A stretch of DNA of 33,154 bases, taken from positions 1 through 33,154 of the forward strand of contig JAIXRH010000046.1 in NCBI GenBank assembly GCA_027485285.1, in the 5' to 3' direction. This document shows positions 6,897 through 21,397 of this stretch, piece by piece. A program made the translations under genes and the position numbers. The number at the start of each line of letters is the position of its first letter. Within the stretch, counting starts at the first letter, position 1. This stretch comes from Comamonadaceae bacterium (GTDB lineage: Bacteria; Pseudomonadota; Gammaproteobacteria; Burkholderiales; Burkholderiaceae_C). The notes under the pieces were generated by a model. It saw only the letters and a program-made list of their open reading frames with translations. It had not been told where the DNA came from and did no database searches.

Positions 6897-6914
6897 TATT
6901 TTAATATTGAAATA
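6897..6914. promoter_or_regulatory. candidate MarR operator, copy 1
   Basis: The 18-base element TATTTTAATATTGAAATA is a near-perfect palindrome centred on AATATT, with a single mismatched pair (T6902/G6909). It begins right after the -10 hexamer and would cover the transcription start, the position expected for repression. MarR proteins bind such AT-rich inverted repeats as dimers, and a MarR gene lies in this operon (10105-10617). A second copy with 16 of 18 bases identical on the opposite strand occurs at 21380-21397. The assignment to that regulator is inference. Confidence 0.65.
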
Positions 6915-6944
6915 TCTAATCTAGAAATAACTTTGGAGCGTTGC

Positions 6945-9299
6945 ATGAACATCGTCTGTATTGGTGGCGGCCCTGCTGGCTTGTACTTTGGCCTGCTGAT
7001 GAAAGCGCGTTGGCCGGAGCACCAGATCACCGTGGTCGAGCGCAATTTGCCCTATGACACCTTTGGTTGGGGTGTCGTGTTCTCAGATGCCACGATGGAC
7101 AACATGCGCCAATGGGACAGCAGCACGGCCGACCAAATTCAAGAAGCCTTCAACCACTGGGATGACATTGAGCTGCTCTTCAAGGGGCGAACCATTCGCT
7201 CGGGCGGTCATGGCTTTGTCGGCATTGGACGCAAAAAACTCTTGAATATTTTGCAAGCCCGTTGCGAAGCCTTGGGCGTCATTTTGAAATTTGATTGCGA
7301 GGTCAACTCCGACCTCGATTTCCCCGATGCCGACTTGATCCTTGCCAGCGATGGTGTCAACTCCAAGATTCGCACCCAGTATGAAGACGTTTTCAAACCC
7401 AACATCGTCACGCGGCCCAACCGTTTTATCTGGCTAGGCACCCATCGCCAATACGACGCCTTCACCTTTGACTTCCAAAAAACCGAGCACGGCTGGTTTC
7501 AGGCGCACATTTACAAGTTCGACGATGACACGTCGACATTCATTGCCGAGTGTCCCGAGCATGTGTGGCTGGCTCACGGCTTGGACAAAGCCGATCAAGC
7601 CGAATCGATCGCGTTTTGCGAAAAAGTATTCGCTGGCAACTTACAGGGCGCCAAGTTGATGACGAATTCACGGCATCTGCGCGGCTCGGCCTGGCTGAAC
7701 TTCCAACGCGTGGTGTGTGAGCACTGGTGGCTCAAAAACAAACACGGCAGCCATGTGGTGCTCATGGGCGATGCTGTCCACACCGCGCACTTCGCGATTG
7801 GCTCGGGCACCAAACTGGCGCTAGAAGATGCGATTGAACTGACACGCCAATTTGAGATCCATGGCTGTGAGGCAGGCCAGATTGCTCAAGTGCTGACGGA
7901 CTACCAAGAGAGCCGCCGCATTGAAACCCTGAAAATTCAAAACGCTGCTTGGAACGCCATGGAATGGTTTGAGGTGTGCGGTGAGCGTTACTGCGACCAA
8001 CTCGAACCCGAGCAGTTCATGTACTCGATGTTGACGCGCAGCCAGCGCATCAGCCACGAGAACCTGCGCCTGCGCGACAAAGGCTGGTTGGATGGCTACG
8101 AGCAGTGGTTTGCCAAACGCGCTTTGGCGCAAGCCGCCCCCGTTGCGGCACATACACCGCCCATGTTTACCCCTTACACCGTGCGATCCGTCACGCTCAA
8201 AAATCGTGTGGTCGTCTCACCGATGGCGCAATATTCTGCGCAAGACGGCATGCCCACGGACTTCCACTTGGTCCACCTCGGCGCGCGTGCAATGGGCGGT
8301 GCAGCCATGGTGTTTGCCGAAATGATCTGTGTCAGTGCAGACGCACGCATCACCCCCGGTTGCCCCGGCTTGTGGAATGACGCACAGACACAGGCTTGGA
8401 AAAAAATTGTCGACTGGGCGCATCACAACAGCGACGCACGCATGGCCGTGCAGCTAGGCCATGCAGGCGCCAAAGGCTCCACACGACGTGCGTGGGACGG
8501 CATTGACCAACCCCTGGCCGCCGATGACACCGAACCCAACTGGCCTCTGATCAGCGCCTCACCCCAGCAATATGTGGCGGACGTGAGCCAATTTTCACGC
8601 GCCATGACCGAGGCAGACATGGCCCGCGTGACCGCCGACTTTGCATCGGCGACGCAGCGCGCGGCAGAGGCTGGCTTTGACTGGTTGGAGCTGCACTGCG
8701 CCCACGGCTATTTGTTGTCGAGCTTCATTTCTCCCCTGACCAACCATCGCACGGATGCTTATGGCGGCAGCTTAGACAACCGTTTGCGCTACCCGATCGA
8801 GGTGTTCACCGCGGTGCGCGCCGCATGGCCGAAGCACCTGCCCATGTCGGTGCGAATTTCTGCCCACGATTGGGTGGCAGGCGGCATCACACCTGCCGAC
8901 GCGGTGCAGATCGCCAAAGCCTTCAAGGCAGCGGGTGCCGACGTGATTGATTGCTCGTCCGGTCAGGTGAGCAAGCAAGAAAAGCCGGTATTTGGACGCA
9001 TGTTTCAAACCCCGTTTGCCGACCGCATCCGCCAAGAGGCGGGTATCGCCACCATCGCGGTGGGTGCGATCAGCGAAGCCGATCATGTGAACAGCATCAT
9101 CGCCGCCGGTCGTGCGGACTTGTGCGCCGTCGCGCGTCCGCATTTGGCCAACCCCGCGTGGACCTTGACCGAAGCCGCCCGCATTGGCTACCAAGCCATC
9201 GCCTGGCCCAAGCCCTACATTTCGGGAAAGCGACAACTCGAATCCAATTTTGAGCGTGCGGCAGCGCAATCAGCGGCTGCCAATCAAGGACCTAAATGA
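6945..9299 (+). CDS. 2-aminobenzoyl-CoA monooxygenase/reductase-type fusion flavoprotein
   Basis: A 784-residue fusion of two flavoenzymes. Residues 1-400 form an FAD monooxygenase of the p-hydroxybenzoate/salicylate hydroxylase class: GGGPAG at 7-12, an acidic VVER after the second strand, and [15 protein letters not shown] with Asp276 as the FAD-binding GD motif. From about residue 407 ([20 protein letters not shown]) the protein is Old-Yellow-Enzyme-like, with [14 protein letters not shown] and [14 protein letters not shown], matching NADPH dehydrogenase/2,4-dienoyl-CoA reductase relatives. This architecture is known from Azoarcus evansii 2-aminobenzoyl-CoA monooxygenase/reductase, which hydroxylates and then reduces the CoA-bound ring without ring-cleaving dioxygenases. 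A salicylyl-CoA 5-hydroxylase role is the alternative. The ATG at 6945 is preferred over TTG 6933 because GGAG lies 6 bases upstream. First gene of its operon. Confidence 0.88.
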
Positions 9300-10108
9300 C
9301 GATGACGATCACCAGCAGCAATCTTCCCCTTCAGCAGCGCCACGCTGTTGTCACTGGCGCTTCGCGAGGCATAGGCGCAGCCATTGCGCGACAACTCGCC
9401 CACGCCGGTGCGCAACTGACCCTGATCGGCAGATCGCATGAACGCCTAGACACGATCGCCGCCGAACTCCAAGCGCTCACACAGGTGCACATCGCAGCGG
9501 TTGACGTGACCGACAACGCGGCCGTGCAAGCCGCCATGCAGGCGGCAGAAAAAGCACTCGGGCCTATCCACATCTTGGTCAACAACGCTGGACAAGCGAC
9601 CAGCCAACCGTTTGAGAAAACAGACTTTGCCCTGTGGCAAGCCATGCTCAACATCAACCTCACCGGCACTTACACCTGCACCCATGCAGCCCTGCCCTCG
9701 ATGCTCAGAGCAGCGGCGGCAGGCACGCCAGGCCGCATCATTCACATCGCCAGCACCGCGGGGCTGCAAGGCTACGCTTATGTGAGTGCCTACACGGCCG
9801 CCAAACATGGTGTCATTGGTCTCACCAAGGCCTTGGCCCTCGAACTGGCCCGCAAGAACATCACCGTCAACGCCCTCTGTCCAGGCTACACCGAGACCGA
9901 CATCGTGCAAACGGCGATAGACACCATCGTCGCAAAAACCGGAAAAACTGCGCAGCAAGCACATGACACCTTGGCCGCCAGCAACCCGCAACAACGCTTG
10001 GTGCAACCCGAAGAAATCGCCCAGGCGGTGGTGTGGCTGTGCAGCGCGGGCAGCGGTTCGATCAATGGACAAGCGATCGCCATCGACGGCGGGGAGTTAG
10101 CGGGATGA
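9296..10108 (+). CDS. SDR-family NAD(P)-dependent dehydrogenase (likely 3-hydroxyacyl-CoA type)
   Basis: A 270-residue classical short-chain dehydrogenase. The cofactor motif TGASRGIG is at residues 20-27, NNAG follows in LVNNAGQAT, and the catalytic set is Ser153, Tyr166 and Lys170 (YTAAK). The segment after the motif (LIGRSHERL) has an Arg at the position that often favours NADP. In this operon the plausible job is to oxidise a 3-hydroxyacyl-CoA or a ring alcohol formed after reduction of the aminobenzoyl-CoA ring. The start ATG overlaps the stop of the monooxygenase (ATGA), and the stop overlaps the MarR start in the same way, so the three are tightly coupled. The exact substrate is not visible. 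Confidence 0.88.
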
Positions 10109-20765: not shown

Positions 20766-20771
20766 CTTCCG

Positions 20772-21377
20772 ATGACCTCTAGTGCACCCGTGCCCTCCCA
20801 TGACCACTACAGCCAGCCTTTGAACTTGAACCAATGGGTGAGTTCGAACGCGCACCTGCTCAAGCCGCCCGTCGGCAATCAACAGATTTGGAAAAACTCA
20901 GACCTGATTTGCACCATCGTGGGCGGCCCCAACCAACGCACCGACTTTCATGTCGATCCCTACGAAGAGTATTTCCACCAATTCAAAGGCAATGCCTCGG
21001 TGCTGATCGCTGACCGCGGCAAGATTGAACGCGTGCATTTGCGCGAAGGCGATGTTTTTTTACTGCCCGCCTTTGTGCGTCACTCGCCCCAACGTCCTGA
21101 AGCGGGCAGTCTGTGCACAGTCGTCGAGCGCAGTCGGCCTGCAGGCGTGATGGATGCGTTTGAGTGGTATTGCGCCCAATGTGGCGAATTGGTCGCCCGC
21201 CGAGAGCTCCAGTTGCTCAGCATTGTCGAAGACCTGCCCAAAGCCTTTGCCTCGTTTTATGACACGAGCGATGCCGAACGCCAGTGTTCACACTGCGGCA
21301 CGGTGCATGCGGGACGTGATTGGGCATCTTGGCATCAACTTTGTGGGCAAAGTTTCGTGAAAACCCTGATGCCATAA
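20772..21377 (+). CDS. nbaC: 3-hydroxyanthranilate 3,4-dioxygenase
   Basis: A 201-residue cupin dioxygenase that opens the ring of 3-hydroxyanthranilate to 2-amino-3-carboxymuconate semialdehyde. By comparison with the Cupriavidus enzyme, the iron ligands His60, Glu66 and His104 are present, as are the substrate-binding Arg56, Arg108 and Glu119. The C-terminal rubredoxin-like site of bacterial forms is intact (Cys134, Cys137, Cys172, Cys175). Length is typical. The gene follows the FAD subunit by 6 bp and so belongs to the hydroxylase operon. Neither the decarboxylase acting on its product nor kynureninase or kynurenine monooxygenase is in the window. An altered substrate, such as another aminohydroxybenzoate, is possible. 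Its last codons overlap the candidate -10 element of the transporter promoter. Confidence 0.92.
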
Positions 21378-21397
21378 TTTATTTCAAGATTAAAATT
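21373..21397 (+). promoter_or_regulatory. candidate -10 element and MarR operator, copy 2
   Basis: CATAAT (21373-21378) could serve as a -10 hexamer; no good -35 is visible. One base later, 21380-21397 reads TATTTCAAGATTAAAATT. The complement of the 6897-6914 element is TATTTCAATATTAAAATA, so 16 of 18 bases agree, with the same placement directly behind a -10. It lies 33 bases before the transporter's first gene. Shared control by the MarR protein is inferred. Confidence 0.6.

Follow-up and report, generated by a model that had tools for sequence, protein, structure and literature searches.

A candidate MarR operator shared by a CoA-dependent aromatic degradation operon and a transporter operon in Limnohabitans and related genera

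Two operons and two candidate operators

The 33,154-nt stretch of contig JAIXRH010000046.1 analysed here (the window) comes from a 2.35-Mb genome of the genus Limnohabitans in the wide sense. It carries an operon for the coenzyme A (CoA)-dependent degradation of an aromatic compound (abm) and, further downstream, a transporter operon, each preceded by a version of one 18-bp palindrome: TATTTTAATATTGAAATA at 6897-6914 (operator 1) and TATTTCAAGATTAAAATT at 21380-21397 (operator 2). Both are candidate operators of the MarR-family regulator encoded within the abm operon, for which the name AbmR is coined here. The evidence for this two-operon regulon is sequence comparison, from which we infer binding by AbmR, repression, release by a ligand, and the nature of the effector and of the transported compound. 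An earlier sequence-only reading of the window had reported these positions and a match at 16 of 18 bases, in agreement with the two differences between the reverse complement of site 1 and site 2. Its placing of the second site on the other strand refers only to the orientation of the best match between two imperfect palindromes, as both sites lie upstream of plus-strand genes. Counted by eye, 8 of 9 base pairs are complementary within site 1 and 6 of 9 within site 2.

A terminator-like stem-loop (6816-6838, plus strand) follows the gene preceding the abm operon. The abmA promoter is sigma-70-like (6868-6896, plus strand), with TTGACA (6868-6873) and GATATT (6891-6896) separated by 17 bp. Operator 1 adjoins this -10 hexamer and covers the predicted transcription start, which makes it likely that a MarR dimer there would act by occluding RNA polymerase. 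Operator 2 lies between the stop codon of a cupin gene (21377) and the start of the transporter operon (21431). The claim that both sites stand directly behind a -10-like hexamer thus holds for site 1, while at site 2 the promoter is not defined.

A degenerate pattern allowing up to three mismatches matched these two places only in the window, where 0.01 matches were expected from shuffles. In the window's own genome, the whole-genome motif search that had been proposed as a check found no places with at most one mismatch besides these two, and two mismatches at the next best. A chance match is excluded in the window and in this genome. A larger regulon in the same genome was considered and rejected, the remaining matches carrying two or three mismatches; around four of them (L003-L006; L labels denote loci and G labels genomes), the one protein related to any in the window was a fragment of an acyl-CoA dehydrogenase (31%, L005).

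The abm operon is read from the plus strand. Its first gene, abmA (6945-9299), encodes a fusion of a flavin adenine dinucleotide (FAD) monooxygenase and an OYE-type reductase, as expected of a 2-aminobenzoyl-CoA (abm) operon, and scores 1345.8 bits against NCBIfam NF006101 (cut-off 1078). The product is predicted to be either a 2-aminobenzoyl-CoA monooxygenase/reductase or a salicylyl-CoA 5-hydroxylase; the acyl group of its substrate is not settled by the match, since NF006101 is named for salicylyl-CoA. The genes that follow encode an SDR dehydrogenase (9296-10108; subfamily matches, the best one below cut-off), AbmR (10105-10617, its start overlapping the SDR stop), an enoyl-CoA hydratase family protein (10614-11474; NF006107, 474 bits, cut-off 330), an acyl-CoA dehydrogenase (11434-12642, start uncertain), a benzoate/aminobenzoate-type CoA ligase (12644-14314, start uncertain; TIGR02262, 334.8 bits, under the cut-off of 375.25) and a RidA-type protein (14330-14725; PF01042). 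The MarR gene therefore does lie inside the first operon, between the SDR and enoyl-CoA hydratase genes, as the sequence-only reading had it. AbmR has the winged helix-turn-helix of the MarR family (PF12802, 48.6 bits, cut-off 27; PF01047, 42.9 bits, cut-off 24.6). Among curated regulator models it matched 12 NCBIfam families, all under cut-off (best BilQ, 45.1 versus 125 bits). An AlphaFold model built from seven sequences (mean pLDDT 67) was too poor for use.

The transporter operon, also on the plus strand, begins with the periplasmic binding protein of a branched-chain-type ATP-binding cassette (ABC) transporter (21431-22603; PF13458). Two permeases and two ATPases follow (22653-26009), and an alpha/beta hydrolase (25972-26862) ends the group.

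The candidate operator at abmA promoters

A palindromic model built from 60 distinct abmA upstream regions has the consensus TAGTTTAAGCTTAAACTA. These regions, and the 35 distinct transporter upstream regions used below, were what remained after removal of duplicates (last 90 bases identical), weak matches (below 55% identity for abmA and 50% for the transporter) and rows whose start was distant or whose overlap was short. Each abmA promoter was scored with itself and those with an identical site removed from the model and, for the window's clade, with the entire clade removed. The operator was found at p<=0.01 in 54 of the 60 regions and at p<=0.05 in 58, the other two being L049 (p 0.07) and L221 (p 0.78). 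The reversed control, in which the whole window clade was retained in the model, unlike the main test, gave 1/60. Of 60 fetched long stretches, 53 have MarR, and in 49 of these abmA is no more than about 1 kb away from it; the other four are one that begins inside the operon (L120), one that holds only part of it (L124), L038 and L134. These counts are consistent with a palindromic operator at the promoter of the regulator's own operon, a trait of the MarR family. An AbmR homologue (E<=1e-25) occurs in 226 of 399 genomes of the family.

Within the window's clade, the abmA site reads TATTT[CT]AATATTGAAATA in nine genomes (G082, G063, G085, G096, G031, G000, G004, G010 and G507) and TACTTCAATCTTGAAATA in G077. 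TTGACA stands exactly 23 bp before the operator in all ten of these members, which are those with a good palindrome (G101 is excluded). Read by eye, the operator of a number of relatives apparently lies between the -35 and -10 hexamers. In 16 of the 60 regions (L139, L143, L253, L254 and others), 7 bp separate the end of the operator from the start codon, suggesting a leaderless transcript. One genus shows another layout at two loci (L138, L140): MarR and abmA diverge from a gap that holds the operator, and beyond the MarR gene come the genes for the CoA ligase and the transporter. G010 has two abm MarR copies on separate contigs (L032 on C109 and L030 on C134, 85% each), either from a duplication or from a mixed assembly.

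The candidate operator at transporter promoters

The transporter site of the window's clade, TATTTCAAGATTAAAAT[TA], is present in all 11 sequences compared. It is invariant at 17 of 18 positions; of the flanking positions, 38 of 60 on the left, in mostly coding sequence, and 1 of 20 on the right are invariant. A model built from 48 abmA sites with the window's clade excluded recovered the site in 18 of the 35 transporter upstream regions (14.5-27.4 bits, p<=0.004 against shuffled sequence), while the other 17 scored 6.8 bits or less. The transporter region of L197, which has the site, was left out of the 35. The 18 site-positive transporters are 77-100% identical to that of the window, and 17 of them come from genomes with MarR. 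MarR status was determined for 15 of the 17 low-scoring regions (L221 and L225 lay outside that check), and eight of these come from MarR-less genomes (G003, G011, G069, G103, G241, G508, G512 and G513), all of which also lack abmA. G069 has a transporter 88% identical to that of the window, yet MarR, abmA and the site are all absent. Absence was called at E<=1e-10 or 1e-25 for MarR and 1e-100 for abmA, in assemblies of which some are incomplete.

A pattern scan of 15 genomes found the transporter site without mismatch in nine window-clade genomes besides G000 (G082, G101, G063, G085, G077, G084, G096, G004 and G010). Seven of the nine also have the abmA site (G077 with one mismatch); in G101 it is degenerate, and the G084 contig stops short of it. 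Relaxed to two mismatches, the pattern matches somewhere in all 15 genomes, and its reversed form has up to 3 matches per genome. The idea of a joint regulon was, as stated beforehand, to be given up if close relatives with the same genes failed to conserve both sites; the comparison supplied no grounds for this.

Genomes with non-adjacent operons

The two operons are not adjacent in a group referred to here by the working label Rhodoferax-type (six named loci, L187, L190, L197, L200, L206 and L228, five of them Rhodoferax), and both promoters carry the lineage's own version of the operator. The transporter site is TACTTTAAGCTTAAACTA in G484 (the genome of L187), TACTTTAGGTCTAAACTA in G502, and TGCTTTAAGCCTAAACTA in G503, G504 and G506; the abmA site is TAGTTTAGGTCTAAACTA, except in G502, where it is TTGTTTAGACATAAACTA. 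abmA and the transporter lie on different contigs of the draft assemblies G502, G503, G504, G506 and G484 (both sites near contig ends in G503). G205 has both on a single 4.5-Mb contig, some 650 kb from each other. G268 also has abmA and the transporter on one contig, separated by 3.8 Mb, and only one good half-site precedes abmA there. Scans allowing one mismatch found only the two sites in G484, G502, G503 and G506, one more place in G504, five more in G205, the transporter site and one other place in G505, and the transporter site only in G268.

The two sites change in step between clades. With sites chosen by hand, the mean mismatch between them was 3.2 (2-6) within 16 genomes versus 7.1 (4-9) between clades, figures that amount to few independent cases and not sixteen because of shared descent within each clade. 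The persistence of the pair in related genera, also when the operons are apart, suggests that one repressor probably controls both. The two lineage-specific versions are a natural experiment on the joint change of a regulator and two separate operators. An association between operator type and MarR residues peaks at residues 100-101; it is confounded by descent and was not used. One of the places in G205 (L285, G205:C1:3728824-3728838) is an operator-like site with one mismatch before a distant (30%) ABC binding protein, whose gene follows a CoA-ligase-like gene (38%); this may mark a paralogous regulon whose operator is similar.

The upper module and the transported compound

Between the two operons of the window lies an upper module on the plus strand, with a divergent LysR-type regulator gene (14739-15665, minus strand) before it. 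It encodes the molybdopterin-binding subunit of a hydroxylase/aldehyde oxidoreductase (xdhL, 15756-17885, start uncertain), a (hydratase-)aldolase of the dihydrodipicolinate synthase (DHDPS) family (17882-18862; PF00701), a 2Fe-2S subunit (xdhS, 18862-19350, start uncertain), an FAD subunit fused to a CoxG domain (xdhM, 19347-20765) and a cupin resembling 3-hydroxyanthranilate 3,4-dioxygenase (3-HAO-like, 20772-21377; NF009763, 243.7 bits, cut-off 220). The combination recurs: 55 of 61 aldolase loci have the cupin, which is accompanied by one or more hydroxylase subunits in 48 and by no hydroxylase match in seven (L198, L199, L208, L219, L222, L225 and L227). The module (15756-21377) is perhaps an undescribed route to anthranilate. 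In Acidovorax loci (L189, L191, L193 and L196), the same module stands beside the abm operon in another arrangement.

Close relatives of the transporter (at least 77% identical) follow the 3-HAO-like gene in the compared loci that have both, in Limnohabitans and Rhodoferax alike. In three other genera a different branched-chain-type transporter (46-47%) lies inside the abm operon (L129-L131, L137), an arrangement that speaks for joint control, and in a fourth genus a transporter (44%) lies beside it. The window's transporter is thus tied to the molybdenum-hydroxylase/aldolase/3-HAO-like module and not to the CoA operon, so it probably imports a precursor from which the module would deliver aminobenzoate. 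More tentatively, and at somewhat less than even odds, the regulon may join an undescribed upper pathway to 2-aminobenzoyl-CoA degradation, the repressor of the lower pathway governing uptake of the upper substrate by feed-forward. In that upper pathway, a bicyclic aromatic amine or N-heterocycle would be imported, the 3-HAO-like enzyme would cleave a ring, the DHDPS-family enzyme would carry out a retro-aldol cleavage and the molybdenum enzyme an oxidation. No description of it was found in the full-text literature searched.

Proposed control and alternatives

The preferred explanation, with a probability of roughly 0.8, is that both sites are AbmR operators through which both promoters are repressed until a pathway intermediate, most likely 2-aminobenzoyl-CoA, releases the repressor. 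Without substrate, an AbmR dimer would occupy 6897-6914, behind the abmA -10 hexamer, and 21380-21397, blocking RNA polymerase. AbmR would most likely be released by 2-aminobenzoyl-CoA formed by the CoA ligase of the abm operon, and the degradation and uptake operons would be turned on together. With its gene inside the operon that it is proposed to repress, AbmR would limit its own amount. As the upper module probably converts a larger aromatic amine into aminobenzoate, feed-forward induction of precursor uptake is likely. The sequence-only reading had proposed one MarR regulon linking import with CoA-dependent degradation; one operator type, one MarR and two operons emerge from the comparison, which also ties the transporter to the upper module.

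Several observations weigh against this explanation. The only promoter offered by a consensus scan before the transporter is ATGCCA-16-TAAAAT, with its -10 inside operator 2. V. paradoxus DS1452 (L221) has an abmA without the operator, the abmA site of G101 is only degenerate, and L038 and L134 have a MarR homologue (56-57%) next to a CoA ligase but no abmA within about 20 kb. G505, the 18th genome with the transporter site, has no MarR or abmA found in its 1.8-Mb assembly. Conversely, seven genomes with a MarR homologue lack the site (G102, G107, G151, G240, G280, G354 and G510); their transporter match is only 53-68% identical, the closest exception being G510 (MarR 72%, transporter 68%). 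The ten Limnohabitans transporter sites may reflect a single event. An extra place with one mismatch occurs in G063 and another in the MarR-less G103, and the reversed pattern has 0-4 matches per genome at the same threshold in the clade and Rhodoferax-type scans. Given this control and the extra low-mismatch matches, the scans support the pair but are weak alone. The outside-clade model also has a third match in the window, at 19866 inside xdhM, with a near-equal score of 14.2 bits. This match was rejected as an operator, being exactly conserved in one of six relatives examined.

It is scarcely credible that the second site, as an AT-rich promoter sequence, resembles the first by chance. The second site does lie in an AT-rich gap and has a moderate score with the outside-clade model (14.5 bits), but 17 of its 18 positions are invariant as against 1 of 20 in the right flank, its p-value against shuffled sequence is at most 0.004, and lineage-true operators occur at the same gene in other genera. 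A chance likeness was rejected on this invariance, the model p-values, the expectation of 0.01 and the reversed control of 1/60. It is also very improbable that the sites are bound by the LysR-type regulator as controller of the neighbouring upper module. AT-rich palindromes may resemble LysR boxes, the two operons have a LysR gene between them, and several relatives carry one in their upper module. However, the operator occurs at abmA promoters in genera without a close LysR relative in the fetched stretches (up to 20 kb), and the Rhodoferax-type operator sits at an abmA that is not adjacent to the upper module. In addition, G069, G103 and G011, which have no MarR, abmA or site, retain a LysR homologue (56-70%) next to xdhL, and none of the 12 best model matches in the window falls in the LysR-xdhL gap. 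LysR was rejected as the binder on the co-occurrence of site, MarR and abmA and the lack of a leading model match in that gap.

A more serious possibility, though still the less probable one, is that AbmR binds both sites but has as its effector a free aromatic acid, either anthranilate or the imported precursor, and not a CoA thioester. MarR proteins of aromatic catabolism use both kinds of effector. PcaV answers to protocatechuate (PMC5487221), and IadR/MarR_73 of the Variovorax auxin-degradation locus binds indole-3-acetate (PMC9613470). The predicted control of the uptake operon would also suit a free acid. On the other hand, this MarR is linked to the CoA operon and not to the upper module, and CoA thioesters are the effectors of CouR and FerC, which act in CoA-dependent hydroxycinnamate catabolism (PMC5487221). 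By analogy with these two, the effector of AbmR would be a 2-aminobenzoyl-CoA-like thioester.

Relation to known systems

AbmR, its operator and the two-operon regulon had no description among the matches listed in the full-text literature, which excludes most subscription journals, and the accessible part of PMC5343134 contains no such regulon. The regulon is well supported by comparison, and it is taken to be new but of a type already known. The work provides a testable operator and regulon for a MarR protein that is widespread in its family, and in freshwater bacteria it connects an uptake system with a likely aminobenzoate pathway.

Azoarcus evansii has a 2-aminobenzoyl-CoA pathway that combines a 2-aminobenzoyl-CoA monooxygenase/reductase with a CoA ligase, as the operon of the window probably does. 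The pathway is named in PMC3534580. No work on an operator or regulator of that pathway was found among the matches listed. MbdR of Azoarcus sp. CIB, which responds to 3-methylbenzoyl-CoA, belongs to the TetR family. Its aryl-CoA-responsive control of an aromatic pathway (PMC4424350) resembles the system proposed here, but the pathway is anaerobic.

CouR, FerC and HcaR are, like the proposed AbmR, MarR regulators of a CoA-dependent aromatic pathway; the gene content of the abm operon places AbmR in the same setting as CouR and FerC. They differ in that theirs is a hydroxycinnamate pathway with hydroxycinnamoyl-CoA effectors, an acid also being discussed for HcaR (PMC5487221). IadR/MarR_73 is, as proposed for AbmR, a MarR repressor of an aromatic operon, and its pathway ends in anthranilate, but its own site lies between iadR and iadA (PMC9613470). 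The sequence similarity between IadR (7kfo) and AbmR is weak (E 2e-5).

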